A program made the position numbers and the translations under genes. This document shows positions 16,665-49,376 of a DNA stretch of 64,000 bases, one piece after another. The notes under the pieces were generated by a model that was not told where the DNA came from, made no database searches, and was given only the letters and a program-made list of their open reading frames with translations. The stretch's first letter is position 1. The number at the start of each line of letters is the position of its first letter. This stretch comes from Pseudanabaena sp. UWO311 (GTDB taxonomy: Bacteria > Cyanobacteriota > Cyanobacteriia > Pseudanabaenales > Pseudanabaenaceae), in the NCBI RefSeq assembly GCF_006937785.1, contig NZ_SJEE01000011.1, positions 1-64,000 on the forward strand, written 5' to 3'.

Positions 16665-17678
16665 GTGACTATCAGGGTAGCGATTAATGGATTTGGGCGC
16701 ATCGGACGTAACTTTCTCAGATGCTGGGCTGGTCGCTCAGAGACAAACATAGAACTAGTTGGACTGAACGATACGTCCGATCCCCGTACCAACGCTCACT
16801 TGCTTAAGTACGACTCCATGCTCGGCAAATTTGCGGGCGAAGTTAGTGCTGATGACACCACAATTACTGTTAATGGCAAAACCATCAAAACAGTTTCCGA
16901 TCGCAATCCTGACAATTTACCTTGGAAAGATTGGGGCATTGATTTAGTCATCGAATCTACGGGTGTATTTATCGATAAAGTTGGCGCTGGCCGACATATT
17001 GGTGCAGGTGCTAAGAAAGTTCTAATTACTGCCCCTGGTAAAAACGAAGATGGTACGTTTGTAGTTGGTGTGAATGATAAAGATTACAACCATGATATTC
17101 ACCACATCATCAGTAATGCTAGTTGCACCACCAACTGTTTAGCACCTGTTGCCAAAGTCTTGCTAGAAAACTTTGGCATTGTCAAAGGTGTAATGACTAC
17201 CACCCACAGCTATACTGGTGACCAACGCTTGCTTGATGCTAGCCACCGCGATTTGCGCCGTGCTAGAGCTGCTGCTTTAAGCATTGTTCCAACCTCCACA
17301 GGTGCAGCTAAGGCTGTTGCGCTTGTATTACCACAACTAGCTGGCAAATTAAATGGCATTGCTTTGCGAGTGCCAACTCCTAACGTCTCAGTTGTTGACT
17401 TTGTGGTCGAAGTGGAAAAAGCCACGATCGCTCAAGAAGTTAATGAAGCATTCCGCGTTGCAGCCGAAGGCTCAATGAAAGGCATTTTGGAATATAACGA
17501 ATTGCCTTTGGTGTCAATCGACTATCGCGGTGTTGATGCATCTTCAATCGTTGACTCTTCTTTGACTATGGTCATGGGTGGCAATATGGTTAAGGTTGTT
17601 GCTTGGTACGACAACGAGTGGGGCTATAGCCAACGTGTTGTTGACTTAGCTGAAATTGTTGCTAAAAACTGGAAATAA
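16665..17678 (+). CDS. gap2: glyceraldehyde-3-phosphate dehydrogenase, photosynthetic type
   Basis: 337 residues. NAD(P)-binding GFGRIGRN at the N-terminus, catalytic Cys in [10 protein letters not shown], His in [14 protein letters not shown], and C-terminal [15 protein letters not shown]. The dinucleotide region and overall sequence resemble cyanobacterial Gap2, the Calvin-cycle enzyme that uses NADPH and NADH to reduce 1,3-bisphosphoglycerate; the plant CP12-regulated GapA is its descendant. There is no C-terminal GapB-type extension. The start codon is GTG, preceded by a weak purine stretch (AAGAA). It is flanked by strong terminators on both sides, so it is monocistronic. Confidence 0.95.
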
Positions 17679-17684
17679 TTTTTC

Positions 17685-17721
17685 AAAAAAAGAGGCGGCA
17701 CTTTGTGCCGCCTCTTTTTTT
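17685..17721 (+). terminator. gap2 terminator
   Basis: A-run, GC-rich stem GAGGCGGCAC / GTGCCGCCTC with loop TTT, then T8: a textbook intrinsic terminator 7 bases after the stop codon. The 17-bp stem includes the A/T runs. Confidence 0.92.
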
Positions 17722-17803: not shown

Positions 17804-19771
17804 ATGAAACTTCCTGCCACTTTGGTTAATTTCGGAGCTTTTTGTAAACGTAATCATCAGCAATTAGTGGCTGGATTGATTACGTTTTCATTGTCTTTGG
17901 GCGTTTTAGGCTTAAGAGAAAATGGAGCTTTTAAGGAAGTGGAGCTTTGGGTTTATGACAGCTTGATGCGATCGCAACTTAACGAACCACCCGATCGCCG
18001 TGTTGTTATTGTCGAAATTTCTGAAGCTGATATTCAAGATTTCTCTAAGCTATATTTTGAGCGATGGCCAATTTCGGATCGCTTATTTGCCAGACTGATT
18101 AACCAAATTTCCGTTGCCAAACCTGCTGCGATCGGCATTGATAAATATCTGGATTTACCAGTTCTAGAAGGACGTAGTGAGTTGGTTAACGCCATTAAAA
18201 ATGCTGGTAATGTAGTAAATGCTAAATTTATTGCAACGGTCGAAGGTCGCAGTGGTGTTGATCCTGCGAAAGATCTAGAACAAATTAGCAGCTATGGATA
18301 TGTGAATTTACCCACAGACAAAGGGGCGCTGGTGCGGCGAGCTTCAATCGTTGGCGATTCAGGGTCTTTAGCCTTTGAGATTGCCAATTTGTATTTAAAA
18401 AATTTGCATGGTAAACAGCTTGTATTTGACCCAGCTGCAATTCAATTTACGGCTGGCAAACAAATTATTCCAAGGATAACGGCAAATTACGGTGCATATC
18501 GTAAAGAGGATGATAGCGGATATCAAATGATGATTCGCTATCGAGGAAAGGCAAGATTCTTTGAGCATATTCGAGCAACTGATGTACTTGAGAAGCGTGT
18601 TGCTCCTGAGAAACTGCGCGATCGCGTAGTCCTAATTGGTGTGACTGCGGAAAGCCTCAAAGATAGCTTTCCCACTCCTGTTAGTGTTGATGGCGAAGTG
18701 ATGTATGGGGTGGAAATCCATGCAAATATTGTCAGCCAGTTGATTAGTAGTACTTTAGACGATCGCAAATTTATTCAGGTTTGGTCAAACGAGATTGAAA
18801 ATATTTGGATTTTGTTTTGGGCGATCGCTGGTGGTGCAATGGCAGCATTTATTGCTCATGCTGGTAAAAATATAGGGCTTTTAGTTCTCTCCTCTGGTGG
18901 TTTAGTTTGGGCTAGCTATTTTGCCTTTGGTCAGGCTCTGTGGATACCATTATTTCCAGCCTTGTTGGGTTTAATTTCTTCAAATGTACTAGTCATGGCT
19001 TATCAGCTTGCAATTCAGCAATCAGAACGCAAAGTGCTGATGGGATTATTTTCACGACATGTCTCTAAGGAGCTAGCCGATATTATTTGGTCAAATCGCG
19101 AAAAATTTCTGCTAGAGGGGCGGATAACTGGACAGGAGGTTTATGTCACTGTTTTGTTTACGGATATGAGAAACTTTAGTACTGCGGCGGAGGCTCAAGC
19201 CCCTGGTGAGACGCTAAATTGGCTCAATAATTATTTGGGAACGATCGCTAATGAAGTTTTAGCTTATGGCGGTATGGTCGATAAGTACATTGGTGATGCG
19301 GTGATGGCAGTATTTGGAGTGCCGATTCCCCATAGTAATGAAATTGAACGTACCCGCGATGCTCAATCTGCTGTTGCTGCGGCTTTAGCGATCGCCCATA
19401 AATTAGCGGAAATGAATGAGGTCTGGGTAGCCCAAGGATTACCACCCGTCTCGACAGGAATTGGCATTAATTCTGGTCTGGTGATTGCAGGAAGTTTAGG
19501 TAGTTCGGAGCGATTGGAATATTCTGTATTAGGAGATGCGGTTAATGTTGCGTCGCGACTAGAGAGCTTTAATAAAGAAGTTGATGGTGGACCACATCAT
19601 ATTTTGATTAGTGAAGAGACATATCAGCGATTAGATAACAATTTCCAGACCGAGTTTGTGGGTAAATTTGCACTCAAAGGGAAAACACAGGAAACAGGAA
19701 TTTACCGAGTTTTGGATGTCCAAAAGAAGCTTAATCAACTTAGTTCCACAAGCTCATTTGAAAATAAATAA
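17804..19771 (+). CDS. CHASE2 domain adenylate/guanylate cyclase
   Basis: 655 residues. A signal-anchor helix (about 20-38) is followed by an extracytoplasmic CHASE2 sensor domain (about 45-330; 'WVYDSLMRSQL', 'ISEADI', 'AIGIDKYLD'), three hydrophobic helices (about 338-400) and a class III cyclase domain (about 440-635) with 'VLFTDMRNFSTAAE', 'GGMVDKYIGDAVMAVFG' and 'EYSVLGDAVNVASRLE'. The metal-binding Asp residues (FTDM, IGDAVM) are present. Substrate-specifying residues suggest adenylate (Lys in VDKYIG, Asp in VLGD), but this is inference. The signal sensed is unknown. It converges on a lipoprotein gene through a shared terminator. Confidence 0.92.
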   Translation: MKLPATLVNFGAFCKRNHQQLVAGLITFSLSLGVLGLRENGAFKEVELWVYDSLMRSQLNEPPDRRVVIVEISEADIQDFSKLYFERWPISDRLFARLINQISVAKPAAIGIDKYLDLPVLEGRSELVNAIKNAGNVVNAKFIATVEGRSGVDPAKDLEQISSYGYVNLPTDKGALVRRASIVGDSGSLAFEIANLYLKNLHGKQLVFDPAAIQFTAGKQIIPRITANYGAYRKEDDSGYQMMIRYRGKARFFEHIRATDVLEKRVAPEKLRDRVVLIGVTAESLKDSFPTPVSVDGEVMYGVEIHANIVSQLISSTLDDRKFIQVWSNEIENIWILFWAIAGGAMAAFIAHAGKNIGLLVLSSGGLVWASYFAFGQALWIPLFPALLGLISSNVLVMAYQLAIQQSERKVLMGLFSRHVSKELADIIWSNREKFLLEGRITGQEVYVTVLFTDMRNFSTAAEAQAPGETLNWLNNYLGTIANEVLAYGGMVDKYIGDAVMAVFGVPIPHSNEIERTRDAQSAVAAALAIAHKLAEMNEVWVAQGLPPVSTGIGINSGLVIAGSLGSSERLEYSVLGDAVNVASRLESFNKEVDGGPHHILISEETYQRLDNNFQTEFVGKFALKGKTQETGIYRVLDVQKKLNQLSSTSSFENK

Positions 19772-19804
19772 AAAGCGGCGCTTAGCGCCGCTTTTTATTT
19801 ATTT
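19762..19804. terminator. bidirectional terminator, overlaps both stop codons
   Basis: A perfect 20-bp stem, loop TTA, with A-run/T-run on both sides. Its left arm contains the last codons of the cyclase gene, and its right arm the stop codon of the convergent lipoprotein gene. Confidence 0.92.
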
Positions 19805-21667
19805 TTTAGTCAACTCTTTAACAGGTGAGGTTGAAGTTGTAGACAAATCCGTTAATGCTGGAGGCTTGTCTGTTGATTTAGCCTCAGCTTTATTCTCTGA
19901 AGTTTCTTTTTTCTCAGAAGACTTATCTACAGGTTTTGTTTCTTCAGTTTTGGCTGGGAAAAATTTACTTGTATCAAAGTTGAAATTTTTGAATACATCT
20001 GTTGGAGCAGCATTTGGTTTGAACTTCTTCGGTTCCTTCTCAGGCAAAGCATCTTTGGGTGGTTCAGATTTTGGTGTTATCAGAGTTGTATTTTTAGAGA
20101 CTTCTTTGGCGGCTTCCTGAGGAGCTTCTTTAGGTGTTGTTACTTGAGGTGAGACTTTGGGTGCGATCGGTCTTCCTGGTATTGCAATAGGGGCATATTT
20201 ACTCCTAATTGGAGCAGGAACGCTCTTGACTGGTTCTACAACATTTACAGGCTTAGCCTTGGCAGATTCTGAAGTAACCTTTTCTGACTCAGTAACTGGC
20301 GTGTTTTTAGCCTTGATGGGCGCAGTTTTTACAGGTTCGGCAGACACAGGAGCATCTTTGACTTTAATTGGTTCAACCTTGACTTGTTCTGGGACTGGAA
20401 CTGCCTTAGTCGGGATAGGTTCAACCTTGACTGGCTCAGCTACTGGTGATGATTTTGTAATAATTGGTGCGGCTGGAGCAACAGGAACTACAGGAATTAC
20501 AGGAACTACAGGAACTACAGGAATTACAGATGATGCTTTATCAACAGGTTTAGTCTCTTCCTTGGGCGCATCTGCTGGCGTAGATGTGGGGCTAACAACC
20601 TCAGTTTTAGATGATTCGGTTGGCTTTTCCGTAGGAGTGACGACAGGTGCGACAGACTCAACAGGCGAAGGTATAACTTCAGGAGCAGGTGGTACATAGT
20701 CTGGGTTAACGATCGCATCGATATTTGCAATCTTTTCGCCACGGACTAGACGCGCTAGGGTGTCAGTACCATTGGGTTGATAGTTAATGACATGGGCAGT
20801 GCTGTTAAATACATTCGCGATCGCATCTCCGTCTGGTTCTAGTAATTCTAGCTTCACCCAATTTTGTCCAGTTTTGAAGCCTTTGAGATAGATTGGCTCC
20901 CAACGATCAAAGGTAAAGCTTTGTCCATCAATGGTGGCGCGAACCTGCCAATCATCGATCGCCTCATCATCTTTGCCGAGTAAATGCAAAGGTGCATTTT
21001 GGAGATAAAAATCAAGCATGATTGGCTCAGCACCATAGGTTCCAACAGGACGGCTGTAGGTTAGCAAAGGTGTTTTTGCTTCGGGAGTATTTTCGCCAGT
21101 TTTGGTCAATACATTAAAGGTAGTCTGTGCATACGCACCTTGGTTTTTGAAGCTTTCATGCCAAGGTCGCGAAGCAAAGGCTCGAATTGTATGAGTTCCC
21201 GCGCTGAGGTGATCAAATGTTGCGGTTTGATTTAGGTCGTAAATTGCTTTGTATTCTTGGTTATCCAAAGTCACATGGATATGGGGCCCTAAACCGAAAT
21301 CAGCATTTTTGAAAATTGGCAAATTTTTGACATCAAACTTCACCGACACTTGAGTGTCATTTAGTATTTCATCAGGTTTTGGGCTGATGATAATGACCTG
21401 TGGGGCATAGCTATCAAGTAGGCGACTGAGGCGTTGAATTTCCTTGGGTGGAGAGACTTCGGTGATGTTAATGCTCGATACGACTTTTTTGTCTGGAACT
21501 TTACTGACTGGCTTATTGTCACCACCGCAAGCTGTGAGGTAAAAGCACAGGGCGATCGCCATGACCAAACTGGATAACTTTTTCCAAGGGATATTTCGCC
21601 AATAAGATTGAACTCGCGAAGTCTTTGGCTTGTCTTCGGGTTGGTTAGAGTTTGCGATCGCGCTCAT
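19799..21667 (-). CDS. lipoprotein with Pro/Val/Lys-rich C-terminal half
   Basis: About 622 residues from ATG 21667 (the track start 21682 is a TTG). A basic N-terminus, hydrophobic helix and lipobox-like LTACGG indicate a membrane-anchored lipoprotein. The folded part (about 60-330) contains two Ig-like segments ('VIIISPKPDEIL ... GPHIHVTLDNQEY ... LSAGTHTIRAFASRP' and 'MLDFYLQNAPLHLLG ... DDWQVRATIDG'). The rest is low complexity with repeated (P/V)-V-K-V-E-P-I-like units and Lys/Glu/Pro-rich stretches, likely an extended wall-spanning tether. No family named with confidence. The antisense 180-aa ORF over this part is only a shadow of the repeats. Confidence 0.75.
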   Translation of the reverse strand: MSAIANSNQPEDKPKTSRVQSYWRNIPWKKLSSLVMAIALCFYLTACGGDNKPVSKVPDKKVVSSINITEVSPPKEIQRLSRLLDSYAPQVIIISPKPDEILNDTQVSVKFDVKNLPIFKNADFGLGPHIHVTLDNQEYKAIYDLNQTATFDHLSAGTHTIRAFASRPWHESFKNQGAYAQTTFNVLTKTGENTPEAKTPLLTYSRPVGTYGAEPIMLDFYLQNAPLHLLGKDDEAIDDWQVRATIDGQSFTFDRWEPIYLKGFKTGQNWVKLELLEPDGDAIANVFNSTAHVINYQPNGTDTLARLVRGEKIANIDAIVNPDYVPPAPEVIPSPVESVAPVVTPTEKPTESSKTEVVSPTSTPADAPKEETKPVDKASSVIPVVPVVPVIPVVPVAPAAPIITKSSPVAEPVKVEPIPTKAVPVPEQVKVEPIKVKDAPVSAEPVKTAPIKAKNTPVTESEKVTSESAKAKPVNVVEPVKSVPAPIRSKYAPIAIPGRPIAPKVSPQVTTPKEAPQEAAKEVSKNTTLITPKSEPPKDALPEKEPKKFKPNAAPTDVFKNFNFDTSKFFPAKTEETKPVDKSSEKKETSENKAEAKSTDKPPALTDLSTTSTSPVKELTKK

Positions 21668-21844
21668 AAAAACTATGCTCAACTCACATTACACAGGCAA
21701 ATATACCGAAAAATGAGCGCTTTGCTTGTAAAGAAACCTCATAATTTATAAAGTAATTTGCTAAAAAGTAACTATAGGTGGCTTTTTGATAAATTGCTTT
21801 ATGCTAAAAGCTATATCTTTACACGATCAACCAAGTTCTCATCA

Positions 21845-26002: not shown

Positions 26003-26039
26003 AAACAAAAAGGGAGCACTTAGCGCTCCCTTTTTGTTT
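26003..26039. terminator. bidirectional terminator
   Basis: AAACAAAAAGGGAGC and complement, loop of 7 (ACTTAGC), between the HLIP gene and the convergent ATP-grasp gene; T-run on both strands. Confidence 0.9.
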
Positions 26040-29573: not shown

Positions 29574-29999
29574 AAAAGTTTGAATTAATGCAGACAGTAA
29601 TATAGATTCAGGAAAACTCAACAAGTTTGCAACATGAAATGAATATATTGGGCAAACCTAATATAAATTCTTACAAATTTTAACAATTTTCTACTTGTAT
29701 TATAGCGATTAGGGCATCCTTGCCCAAAATTTTGGCGATAATACCAATCCTCTAAATGGTGTTGCCATTTAGTTGAAATTAAACGTAGGATGGGTTAGCG
29801 ATAGCGTAACCCATCATTGCTGACTACTTGATGCGTTACGTTGCACTAACGCATCCTACATTTAGTTATAACAATTCACAGAAGTGTGACAACACTTCTG
29901 TGAATTAAAAACCAAACCCTGCAAGGGTTTTCAAAGCACAAAATGGCTACGCCATTTTGTGCTTTGATATGATGCCTTCCTACTGATTAGCGTGAAAAG
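29574..29999. other. repeat-filled spacer upstream of alaS
   Basis: Holds, in order, an ATACCAATCC-type half of the MITE family seen at 52617 with a small CTAAATGG/CCATTTAG hairpin, the GTAGGATG element (29787-29859), a 15-bp hairpin AATTCACAGAAGTGT (29873-29906), and a 17-bp hairpin with tip GGC-TAC-GCC (29931-29967) that may end the leftward kinase-phosphatase transcript. No gene seen. Confidence 0.7.
29787..29859. mobile_element. MITE-like element with GTAGGATG/CATCCTAC ends
   Basis: A 73-base element with terminal inverted repeats GTAGGATG(G)GTTAG and CTAACGCATCCTAC, and an internal GGGTTAGCGATAGCGTAACCC hairpin. This sequence type recurs in many cyanobacterial genomes. Confidence 0.6.
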
Positions 30000-38045: not shown

Positions 38046-38585
38046 ATGAGCCTCTCGACGCGAATCTATCTAAGTGAGATCGATCAAAAATTTTTATCGC
38101 AACTACGGGCGATCGATTGTGCATGTCTCGGTGATTTTTGGAGCTTAGAAGCCTATCAACGTGAAATCGAAAATCCCAGTAGTCTTATATTGGGCTTAAC
38201 TACTGAAAATTATGAACTACTTGGTTTTGGCTGTTTATGGTCGGTTCTTGAAGAAGCCCATATAACAGTATTGGCAGTGCGTCCCGAATATCAAGGTCAA
38301 GGTTTGGGTAAGTCGTTGGTATGGGGCTTGCTTAAAAAAGCTCGCGATCGCAACTTAGAATGGGCGACCCTCGAAGTACGTGAATCTAATCATGTGGCTA
38401 TCTCTTTATATGAAAGTTTTGGCTTTAAGGAAATTGGTAGAAGACCCAAATATTATGAAGTGACTGGCGAAGATGCCTTGATGTTATGGTGTAAAGGTCT
38501 CCATACAGAGGAGTTTGGGGCATTTCTAGAGCAATGGCATGAGTCCATTTCAGAGAATTTATTAGCTAAGGGCTGGAATTTGTAA
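38046..38585 (+). CDS. rimI: ribosomal protein S18 alanine N-acetyltransferase (GNAT)
   Basis: 179 residues with the GNAT fold: 'LGFGCLWSVLEEAHITVLAVRPEYQGQGLGKSLVWGLLKKARDRNLEWATLEVRESNHVAISLYESFGFKEIGRRPKYYE' is characteristic of RimI (V-x-P-x-x-Q-x-x-G-x-G/S and the RxxYY end). The acetyl-CoA loop is Q-G-Q-G-L-G-K. The C-terminal extra 30 residues are cyanobacterial. It is read divergently from the TauE gene, and a 25-bp hairpin follows. Confidence 0.92.
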   Translation: MSLSTRIYLSEIDQKFLSQLRAIDCACLGDFWSLEAYQREIENPSSLILGLTTENYELLGFGCLWSVLEEAHITVLAVRPEYQGQGLGKSLVWGLLKKARDRNLEWATLEVRESNHVAISLYESFGFKEIGRRPKYYEVTGEDALMLWCKGLHTEEFGAFLEQWHESISENLLAKGWNL

Positions 38586-38591
38586 TTTTAG

Positions 38592-38644
38592 AAACCCTAA
38601 AAACTGTACCGCCTGCGCAGCAGGCGGTACAGTTTTTAGGGTTT
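38592..38644 (+). terminator. rimI terminator
   Basis: A perfect 25-bp stem with loop GCA (tip GCCTGC-GCA-GCAGGC) and TTTTT, 6 bases after the stop. Confidence 0.85.
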
Positions 38645-40658: not shown

Positions 40659-40691
40659 AATAAAAAAGGGCGCTCAGCGCCCTTTTTTATT
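40659..40691. terminator. bidirectional terminator before tsaC stop
   Basis: AATAAAAAAGGGCGC and complement with loop TCA; A/T runs on both sides; its last base is in the tsaC stop codon. Confidence 0.9.
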
Positions 40692-42505: not shown

Positions 42506-43693
42506 ATGAGCAAAACAGCCATCGACCTACCTATTGAAATCAAGTTGCCTGTAGGCAAACTTGGCGGAAATCTTGAAGAAATTGAAGAAGACCTTGAAGA
42601 CCTAGATGATGATATCGAACTCGAAAAGGACGATTTAATTGATGACTCAGATGAAGACGCTGACTCAGATGATGACCCTGACAAAGCTGGCAAAGCAAGG
42701 GGGACTAAAAAACGAGCTAGCCAGACTAAGAAAAAGCATTTTACTGAAGACTCGATTCGCCTCTACCTTCAAGAAATTGGTCGTATCCGATTACTCAGAG
42801 CTGATGAAGAAATTGAGCTTGCTCGAAAGATTGCCGATCTTTTAGAGCTAGAGCTGAAGCGTGAAGAGATAGCAAATGAGGTTGAATGCCATCCTGATGA
42901 TGTCAGGGAAGCAGACTGGGCAGTCAAAATGGATATGCCCCTTGGAGAGTTTCGCAAACGTCTCCACTCTGGTCGCAGGGCAAAAGACAAGATGGTGCAG
43001 TCTAACTTGCGACTGGTCGTGTCGATCGCTAAAAAGTACATGAATCGTGGATTGTCTTTCCAAGATTTAATCCAAGAGGGCAGTCTGGGCTTGATCCGTG
43101 CCGCCGAGAAGTTTGACCATGAAAAGGGTTACAAGTTCTCGACCTATGCGACATGGTGGATTCGTCAGGCTATTACTCGTGCGATCGCTGATCAATCTCG
43201 TACGATCCGCTTACCTGTCCACCTTTACGAAACTATTTCGCGGATTAAGAAAACTACTAAGTTGCTTTCCCAAGAAATGGGGCGCAAGCCAACCGAAGAG
43301 GAAATCGCCACCCGCATGGAGATGACCATTGAAAAGCTACGGTTTATTGCTAAATCTGCGCAGTTGCCGATCTCTTTGGAAACTCCCATTGGTAAGGAGG
43401 AAGATTCTCGACTTGGTGACTTTATTGAATCTGAGGGTGAAACTCCTGATGATCAAGTTGCTAAAAGTCTCTTGCGTGAGGATCTTGAAAGCGTGCTTGG
43501 CACTCTTAGCCCTAGAGAACGCGATGTCTTGCGTCTACGCTACGGACTTGATGATGGGCGCATGAAAACGCTTGAAGAAATTGGTCAAATCTTCAATGTC
43601 ACCCGTGAGCGCATCCGCCAAATCGAAGCTAAAGCCCTTCGCAAGTTGCGACATCCTAATCGAAATAGCGTGTTAAAAGAGTACATACGTTAA
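42506..43693 (+). CDS. sigA: primary RNA polymerase sigma factor SigA (RpoD)
   Basis: 395 residues. A very acidic N-terminus (about 25-65) precedes region 1.2 ('[28 protein letters not shown]'), region 2 with '[57 protein letters not shown]', region 3 and region 4 ('[32 protein letters not shown]'). The spacer between 1.2 and 2.1 and the complete 2.3-2.4 sequence identify the essential group 1 factor of cyanobacteria rather than a group 2 factor. It reads toward rpmH, ended by a 24-bp hairpin that includes its stop codon. Confidence 0.96.
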
Positions 43694-43736
43694 AAAGTAA
43701 AGGGAGCGCTCAGCGCTCCCTTTACTTTTTAACGTA
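43686..43736 (+). terminator. sigA terminator, overlaps stop codon
   Basis: Perfect 24-bp stem with tip GGGAGCGC-TCA-GCGCTCCC. The left arm starts inside the last codons of sigA. Confidence 0.9.
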
Positions 43737-43770
43737 TCAAACCGATTTTGGTGCTAGAAACACCAAAATT

Positions 43771-43834
43771 AGTTTTTTGAAAGTCAGCCGTAGGCTGACT
43801 TTCAAAAAACTGACTTTTATAGTTAGAATTGCTA
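43771..43834. repeat. 19-bp hairpin followed by a CAGyAATTCT-family end
   Basis: AGTTTTTTGAAAGTCAGCC and exact complement with loop GTA (43771-43811), then TTTATAGTTAGAATTGCTAG (43815-43834), matching the reverse end of the element at 50118-50247, which has a similar TTTTTTGAAAG(C/T)C hairpin inside. Confidence 0.7.
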
Positions 43835-46384: not shown

Positions 46385-46903
46385 ATGGAAGATACTTCAG
46401 CAGGTGCAAATTGGCTGCAAGAGCTTTTAAGTTTGATGGGTTATGCGACTTCGGTTGATATTCGTCTTGCCGAGGTATCTCCAGAACAAGTTACTGCTGG
46501 CTCTCGGAACTATTGGCTAGAAATAAATTCTGATGGTTTGCAGGAGCAGCAAATTCAAAGATTGATTGGGAAAGACGGGATAGTAATTGATTCGTTACAG
46601 TATTTGTCTAGCATTCTTCTGAATCGTCATTTACCTTCAGAAATAGCAGAAACAGAAAATCGTAATTTTTATACAGTCGAATTAAATGGCTATCGGTCAA
46701 ATCGTATAGCTGACTTACAGGCTTTGGCAGAAAATGCGGTGCAGCAGGTTCGCGAGACGCAAACTGAGTTTGTCATTAAGCAATTGTCGTCCGCCGATCG
46801 CAGGCATATTCACCAGCTTTTAGAAGGTTTTCCAGATATTGAAACCCATAGTCAGGGTCGAGAGCCAAATCGTCATTTGATTGTTAAGTTGGTGCAGAGT
46901 TGA
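46385..46903 (+). CDS. jag: Jag/KhpB-like RNA-binding protein (KH and R3H)
   Basis: 172 residues. An N-terminal KH-like domain ('WLEINSDGLQEQQIQRLIGKDGIVIDSLQYLSSILLNRH', with the GxxG loop GKDG) is followed by an R3H domain ('LSSADRRHIHQLLEGFPDIETHSQGREPNRHLIVKL', R-R-x-x-x-H). These bind single-stranded RNA and are normally next to yidC. No Jag-N domain, as expected in cyanobacteria. The stop overlaps the next ATG (TGATG), so translation is coupled. Confidence 0.92.
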   Translation: MEDTSAGANWLQELLSLMGYATSVDIRLAEVSPEQVTAGSRNYWLEINSDGLQEQQIQRLIGKDGIVIDSLQYLSSILLNRHLPSEIAETENRNFYTVELNGYRSNRIADLQALAENAVQQVRETQTEFVIKQLSSADRRHIHQLLEGFPDIETHSQGREPNRHLIVKLVQS

Positions 46904-47406
46904 TGGAAAAGTTATATATACCTCAGATCGCGAGAGCCGTGGATGCGACTGAAACTTTTGATTTCAAAGAATTTATTGAGGGGCTAGAGACATTAACTCC
47001 TGTCCAAGGTGTGATTAGTGTCAGGCATGTTGGTTCTTTTCTCGAAGTTAGTTCTAAAGCTTCGACGATTATGACTTTGACTTGCGATCGCACGTTAGTG
47101 CAATTTAACTATAGGTTGGCGATTAACAATTCTGAGAGGATTTGTCTGGCTGAGCCTTTGCCAGAAAGTGAGTACCCTAGAGAGCGAGAAATTGAAGCAG
47201 ATGACTTAGTCGAGTCTATATCTCCTAGTGGTTATTTTGATCCTAAGGCTTGGCTATATGAGCAATTAATTTTAGCTATTCCCTATCCGAAGATTGCACC
47301 TGATGCGCCTGCTCTTGAAATTACTGATGCAAATAGTTTTGACGGTTCAACGGCTACCATCGATAAGCGGTGGGAAATATTAAATTCATTAAAATTACCT
47401 GAATAA
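46903..47406 (+). CDS. yceD: YceD family protein (DUF177)
   Basis: 167 residues from ATG 46903. It shows the DUF177 features: 'LTPVQGVISVRHVGSFLEVSSKASTIMTLTCDRTL' (with one Cys), the acidic 'LPESEYPREREIEADDLVESISPSGYFDPKAWLYEQLILAIPYPKIAP'. In many bacteria YceD is linked to 23S rRNA or ribosome assembly. The start overlaps the jag stop. The last 16 bases of the gene form part of a 27-bp perfect hairpin. Confidence 0.9.
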   Translation: MEKLYIPQIARAVDATETFDFKEFIEGLETLTPVQGVISVRHVGSFLEVSSKASTIMTLTCDRTLVQFNYRLAINNSERICLAEPLPESEYPREREIEADDLVESISPSGYFDPKAWLYEQLILAIPYPKIAPDAPALEITDANSFDGSTATIDKRWEILNSLKLPE

Positions 47407-47447
47407 AAAGGGCGTGCTTTGCACGCCCTTTTTATTCAGGTAATTTT
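47391..47447. terminator. 27-bp perfect hairpin overlapping the yceD 3' end
   Basis: Arms 47391-47417 and 47421-47447, loop TTT, tip GGGCGTGC-TTT-GCACGCCC. The left arm includes the last five codons and the stop codon. A second hairpin TTTTTTAAAAGTGTTGC / complement with loop AAA (47446-47479) follows and would serve the convergent TPR gene. Confidence 0.9.
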
Positions 47448-47516
47448 TTAAAAGTGTTGCAAAGCAACACTTTTAAAAAATTTTCGGTTTGAGTTAAAGC
47501 GCAACGCGCTGTATGT

Positions 47517-49046: not shown

Positions 49047-49376
49047 AGTTAATTTTGTCCTTGCGTAAATTATTGCGTGGGATATCTTTGAGATTCTACC
49101 CAATTCGTTAGCGATCGCACCTATAGATATCGCTATCAAAACCTAAGAAGTAAGTGGCGGCGCAAAGCGCCGCCACTTACTTCTTAGGTTTTGTCCCAAA
49201 CCAGCAGCCTGTCGGAGATATCAAAAATCCTTCTTGTTAGGGTGTGTTAGCCATAGAGCTATCTTTACGAATATCAAGTTTGTCTGTCTAAAGGCAGAAA
49301 ATATAAAGAGAGATTGCAGATTTCTAAACAATCTGTTACATTACTAAATATAAATTAACTGAAAGGTAATTCGATT
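49047..49376. other. divergent spacer between the TPR and HLIP genes
   Basis: Contains a perfect 26-bp hairpin (49138-49192, tip GGCGGCGC-AAA-GCGCCGCC) although no transcript should end here, then a 180-base AT-rich stretch that should hold the HLIP promoter; GTTACATTAC at about 49336 is a possible half of an RpaB-type HLR1 site but the second half is not convincing. Confidence 0.65.

Follow-up and report, generated by a model that had tools for sequence, protein, structure and literature searches.

Long perfect hairpins at Pseudanabaena gene ends carry the footprint of template switching

INTRODUCTION

Template switching at quasipalindromes was modeled by Ripley in 1982 (as cited in PMC8604942), and the resulting mutations have been assayed in E. 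coli (PMC7202029). In such mutation, as in the Pseudanabaena hairpins described here, an imperfect inverted repeat is perfected when one arm is copied from the other and synthesis returns at a short match; the Pseudanabaena case differs in that it concerns genus-wide evolution of hundreds of terminator-like hairpins that reach into gene ends. The reported footprints of template switching are multiple compensations, stem extension, and inversion of the loop or spacer (PMC8794818, PMC8604942). The rRNA hairpins studied by Monttinen and Loytynoja (PMC8794818) show all three as well, but rRNA loops are mostly 4 nt long and rarely inverted because they are constrained (GAAA is 99 times commoner than UUUC), whereas Pseudanabaena loops are 3 nt long, C-G closed, and often inverted. 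In 39 yeast genes (PMC8604942), arm homogenization and spacer inversion likewise affect coding DNA, with amino acid changes; those repeats are short and intragenic, whereas the Pseudanabaena stems are long, lie across the stop codon, and place the copy outside the gene. Nematomorpha mitochondria (PMC6649704) also have coding DNA with perfect inverted repeats, for which template switching has been suggested as one possible cause; those repeats lie inside genes, with coding sequence in both arms, and in Pseudanabaena usually only one arm is coding.

In form, the hairpins resemble bidirectional intrinsic terminators, with an A-rich 5′ arm, a GC tip, and a T-rich 3′ arm directly after the stop codon, but their stems (15–34 bp) are free of mismatches and their loops are 3 nt long. 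A literature search on Pseudanabaena hairpins returned nothing on gene-end copying. The mechanism is already known; its scale and placement in Pseudanabaena look new. What sets the hairpins apart from the known cases is how densely they occur in one genus, how they extend into coding ends, and how often the loop flips, together with the C(NNN)G tip.

RESULTS

The 64-kb window (the whole stretch of DNA that was analyzed) is part of contig C3 of a 5.2-Mb Pseudanabaena genome (G000). Statistics cover about 0.46 Mb of G000 plus roughly 1 Mb from relatives, and the orthologous hairpins sampled number a few dozen. Genes were named from matches to PF02620, NF005643, and CHASE2/Guanylate_cyc. The hairpin from which the analysis departs lies at the end of yceD:

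46900–47406, (+) strand: yceD, DUF177/YceD family (from the ORF list; PF02620, E = 2.4e-11)
47391–47417, (+) strand: left arm, 27 nt, of which 47391–47406 is coding and includes the stop codon TAA
47418–47420: triloop TTT, C-G closed
47421–47447, (+) strand: right arm, the exact complement of the left arm
47442–47482: second hairpin after yceD, with a stem of 19 and loop AAA, a member of a dispersed repeat

The stem is perfect over 27 bp (47391–47417 with 47421–47447) and takes in 16 bases at the 3′ end of yceD (13 nt plus TAA), exactly as the initial annotation had described. The region 47398–47440 is terminator-like on both strands.

The coding copy at yceD is derived. In G018, a 96% sister, the last codons of yceD are identical and the copy is absent; the right-arm site reads ATTCGGAACCGAAAATTTT, and the 3′ side as a whole reads ATTCGGAACCGAAAATTTTTT in G018 and ATTCAGGTAATTTTTT in G000. 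Specifically, GGAACCGAA in G018 corresponds to AGGT in G000, which is the complement of ACCT. Because GAATAA was already paired and AATTTT already present, only AGGT (4 nt), directly after TTTTTATTC at about 47438–47441, needs to have been newly copied since the split from G018. AATTTT, common to both genomes, forms the junction of the change, which, examined by hand, can be read as a single switch. The bases displaced in G000 had belonged to AACCGAAAA, the outer left arm of that second hairpin, which is kept in G018 and lost in G000. Since the longer second hairpin of G018 fits the dispersed repeat in its symmetric form, other copies of which have near-symmetric outer arms, the G000 state is the derived one. 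Of the core hairpins present at this gene end in G009 and G017, the former is related and the latter different; both end at AATAA.

Searching the genome with the yceD region placed the second hairpin at about 40 sites and the first stem only at its own. Identical arms at many unrelated sites, the mark of REP/MITE-type elements, were thus not found for the first stem, and the sigA and cyclase arms described below follow their own genes, which argues against membership in that type. The dispersed repeat itself consists of TTTTTTAAAAGTGTTGCAAAGCAACACTTTTAAAAAA with symmetric outer arms (window 47442–47482; L003–L008). Another repeat, a double hairpin of about 100 bp with the layout AATTCACAAAAGTGT...ACACTTTTGTGAATT-AAAACCAAACCC...-AAAGCACAAAATGGC NNN GCCATTTTGTGCTTT, occurs in dozens of copies per genome (window 29873–29967; L066 around 16776–16885) and in all seven relatives searched; in G011, one copy lies inside the sigA terminator hairpin.

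Two further hairpins of the window overlap gene ends in a like manner:

43685–43737: hairpin at the sigA/RpoD end, with a perfect stem of 25 bp and loop TCA
19761–19805: hairpin at the CHASE2-guanylate-cyclase end, between convergent genes, with a perfect stem of 21 bp and loop TTA

Both had been pointed out in the initial annotation and are indeed there, starting one base earlier than given (43686 and 19762). The sigA gene ends at 43693, so that its stem takes in nine gene bases (43685–43693), and the cyclase gene ends at 19771, which puts 11 gene bases in the left arm; the right arm of the cyclase hairpin also spans the final 7 bases of ORF 19799–21682, which is convergent with it.

At sigA, the right arm is extended by AACGTAT in G000 only among 15 species, i.e., in none of the 14 relatives. 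In relatives that carry the core hairpin, it terminates in TTTTTATATAT, TTTTTATAATT, TTTTTAGG, TTTTTGGG, or a similar sequence; five of the 14 have no hairpin at the site, with the protein end conserved. As at yceD in the comparison with G018, the derived arm is the reverse complement of an arm that existed before. TA in the arm has become ACG in G000, a copied tract of 3 nt, and in the gene a synonymous ATT-to-ATA change pairs with a TAT that was already in place; ATA occurs in G008 as well, where the arm is not extended. The synonymous change together with the arm change means that both sigA arms took part and that the coding side was not fixed. The proposal that the right arm was made from the left thus stands as far as the outside arm is derived and copied, the new tracts being short (about 4 nt at yceD and 3 nt at sigA).

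Arms also track changes in last codons. At the cyclase end, G009 has other last codons (AEHKQ-stop), mirrored in a perfect stem of 26 bp; in G016, a Lys-to-Arg change is paired with a TAA-to-TAG change in the opposing gene's stop codon, the arms having changed together around a loop TAA; and in G005, AAT-to-AAC is mirrored in the other arm. The coding copy is absent in G011 and G022. One counter-case was found, in G018, where two mismatches in the cyclase stem remain unrepaired; both opposing stop codons carry one of them, at the T, so that repair of either from the other arm would cost one of these stops. Mismatched stems beside diverged coding ends had been named as the pattern that would speak against copying; apart from this instance, the main prediction holds.

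Tracking recurs elsewhere in the genome. At C1:286297 (a permease-like gene), a Glu-to-Asp change in G005 is mirrored in a copy of 11 bases, and the hairpin is missing from several relatives whose protein end is identical. GCC-to-GCA in G016 (C1:156724) and CGT-to-GGT, Arg to Gly, in G018 (C1:97547) are each mirrored in the other arm, and of three mirrored changes at C1:114507, one abolishes the stop codon. The expectation that the arm in relatives would either follow the last codons or be missing was therefore borne out in both forms, by the changes at these loci, at the cyclase, and at ppk (below) and by the missing yceD copy (G018) and sigA extension (0 of 14 relatives).

At ppk, the mirror copy has passed into a neighboring gene:

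G000:C1:67366–68304 (L062:7366–8304): bioB, convergent with ppk

In G022, G011, and G005, where bioB is not adjacent, the copy is present in a TTC or TTT form. In G000, G018, G016, and G009, it now codes for the end of BioB. The protein terminates in KEFA there, against KELV in another four species, and the EFA codons mirror the 3′-terminal codons of the convergent ppk on the opposite strand. The names BioB and Ppk, read from the protein sequences, are putative, and a deletion probably joined bioB to the arm of the ppk hairpin. The premise of the initial annotation that coding bases are fixed by the protein consequently fails in three places: the sigA change that made a pair with a pre-existing TAT, the stop codon bases of C1:114507 that changed along with the other arm, and the BioB end taken from a hairpin arm.

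Compensatory changes far exceed the number expected if the two sides of a stem changed independently. Specifically, in 21 hairpins orthologous between G000 and G018 (433 pairs), 14 changes were compensatory, against 0.3 expected, and 13 one-sided; in 23 hairpins compared with G016 (474 pairs), 28 were compensatory, against 1.2 expected, and 25 one-sided. Loops, in turn, are often inverted. Where a loop changed without changing length, the new loop was the exact reverse complement of the old one in 8 of 10 cases against G018 and in 8 of 14 against G016, compared with about 8% by chance. At C1:148038, the sole difference from G018 is the loop (AAA to TTT), and some flips are found in stems as short as 14–15 bp. 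Template switching, which the initial annotation had put forward, leaves this published footprint of excess compensation and loops flipped to their reverse complement (PMC8794818, PMC8604942).

The tips of the hairpins follow a narrow rule. Among 579 perfect stems of G000 and its congeners, 416 have a loop of 3 nt, of which 406 (98%) are closed by 5′C...G3′ and none by 5′G...C3′. In DNA, triloops with a C-G closing pair have very high stability. With orientation taken from the gene, loops and their reverse complements occur in similar numbers (GAA 26 and TTC 23; GCA 9 and TGC 8; GTA 9 and TAC 7; TTT 33 and AAA 19), a near balance that fits neutral flipping combined with a tip chosen for folding. 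Tips at one gene end differ between lineages, and the insertion of a small GC tip proposed in the initial annotation is hypothetical.

The window holds 22 perfect stems of at least 15 bp with loops of at most 9 nt; five first-order Markov shuffles of it held none. Over 464 kb of G000, there are 154 perfect stems of at least 12 bp, 92 of which lie nearest a gene 3′ end. Twelve stems in these 464 kb reach a stop codon from outside, and they extend into the gene by at least 3 further coding bases in 10 cases (0.2 expected by chance), at least 6 in 5 cases (0.004 expected), and at least 8 in 3 cases (0.0002 expected). Folded as single-stranded DNA, the yceD, sigA, and cyclase hairpins reach −30.3 kcal/mol (z = −13.7), −28.1 kcal/mol (z = −13.7), and −22.7 kcal/mol (z = −6.0), respectively. 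Other hairpins of the window are as follows, the last being a perfect hairpin and the rest of the same class as those three:

17685–17721: 3′ of ORF 16665–17678, stem of 17, loop TTT
26003–26039: perfect outer stem of 15 plus an inner mismatch
38592–38644: 3′ of ORF 38046–38585, stem of 25, loop GCA
40659–40691: between convergent ORFs, stem of 15, loop TCA
49137–49193: stem of 27, loop AAA
43771–43811: stem of 19, loop GTA

The hairpin at 49137–49193 differs from that of G018 by one pair changed on both sides with pairing kept (AAGTAAGTGG versus AAGTATGTGG), the inner mismatch at 26003–26039 is absent in G016, and the loop GTA at 43771–43811 is inverted to TAC in G016.

This abundance is restricted to the genus. 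The nine congeners first sampled have 22 to 70 perfect stems of at least 15 bp per 100 kb, and G012 has 10 in 48 kb. Five genomes representing four sister genera (480 kb in all) and 100 kb of E. coli contained no such stem, and six other cyanobacteria yielded one in 120 kb. At gene ends, a stem of at least 8 bp occurs in 28.7% of cases in G000 (nearly all of these reaching at least 12 bp), in 0–3.4% in the sister genera, and in 19.8% in E. coli, where 1.2% reach at least 12 bp. Four of the five sister-genus genomes sampled (L189–L196, L219–L234) lack any perfect stem of at least 12 bp.

Loss of SbcCD or ExoVII was rejected as the cause, since the genes for SbcD and XseA (ExoVII) are present throughout Pseudanabaena. 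A second SbcD homologue (L215:9612–10796, [−] strand) was found in nearly all Pseudanabaena genomes searched, with weak matches in sister genera. As a candidate cause it was set aside: it adjoins a downstream gene for a NACHT/HEAT protein and not SbcC, and it was not found in G012, which nevertheless carries its 10 perfect stems.

DISCUSSION

We consider it highly probable that these are intrinsic-terminator-like gene-end hairpins whose arms are kept identical and lengthened outward, as far as into the adjacent gene, by template switching in replication. A nascent or single strand would fold at the hairpin tip, the 3′ arm would be extended with the 5′ arm of the same strand as template, and a short match would let synthesis rejoin the normal template; the loop would flip whenever a switch crossed the tip. 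Where the outer arm is a gene end, purifying selection would mostly retain outcomes in which the gene served as template, so that the outside arm would come to be a mirror copy of the last codons. That the copying takes place during replication and within one molecule is what we infer from these patterns. The hairpins have a GC-rich stem followed by a T run 3′ of genes, as intrinsic terminators do, and would terminate transcription. One-sided and compensatory changes occur at about equal frequency (13 and 14 against G018), so repair is not immediate, and because several tracts are only 3–4 nt long, a single event proves little.

Selection could by itself favor long perfect stems as bidirectional terminators or RNA-protecting structures, with pairs restored by compensatory point mutation. 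The placement of the stems agrees with this, a stem of at least 10 bp being found at 26.9% of 334 gene ends and at 0% of sites inside genes, as do the A-rich 5′ and T-rich 3′ arms and the terminator-like character of 47398–47440 on both strands. Point mutation followed by selection leaves unexplained, however, how a loop is exactly inverted while the arms otherwise stay as they were (as at C1:148038), how multi-base tracts arise, and why coding bases that alter amino acids change together with the other arm, and stems of 20–34 bp exceed those of E. coli terminators (at least 8 bp at 20% of gene ends, at least 12 bp at 1.2%). We therefore regard selection alone as improbable; selection for terminator strength could still add to the compensation.

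Less probable again is the insertion of mobile hairpin elements beside stop codons, both arms included, with the gene end being part of the element. Dispersed hairpin families do exist here (the 47442 hairpin and, in seven relatives, the double-hairpin repeat of about 100 bp), and a hairpin arm was the source of the last codons of BioB. The protein ends of yceD, sigA, ppk, and the permease gene are, however, unchanged in relatives that lack the hairpin or the extension, so these gene ends are older than what now pairs with them, which refutes the insertion reading for these genes; the outer arms at all four are also gene-specific. An assembly or library artifact at palindromes might produce flipped loops and falsely perfect arms, and many of the relatives are metagenome bins or drafts in which palindromes are hard to assemble. 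Yet the same patterns recur in many independent assemblies, including the near-complete G022, G002, and G020, the shortest flipped stems (14–15 bp) are below the usual assembly word size, and the arms track real coding differences; we give this explanation almost no credence.

Beyond template switching at existing hairpins, we offer, tentatively and as the less likely side of the matter, a broader proposal: that a lineage-specific and unusually active process in Pseudanabaena starts and perfects hairpins at C(NNN)G tips and may thereby have supplied intrinsic terminators, which are nearly absent from the sister genera, writing mirror copies of gene ends into neighboring DNA and at times into a neighboring gene.

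How long RNA stems arise and remain perfect has yet to be settled in the study of RNA evolution, and Pseudanabaena provides dozens to hundreds of natural replicates. Protein coding ties down one of the arms, which often makes it possible to tell which way copying went, and because sister species diverged by 4–10% already show repair, extension, and flips, the rate could be measured directly. A mutational habit of this kind may both install terminators and alter the ends of proteins.
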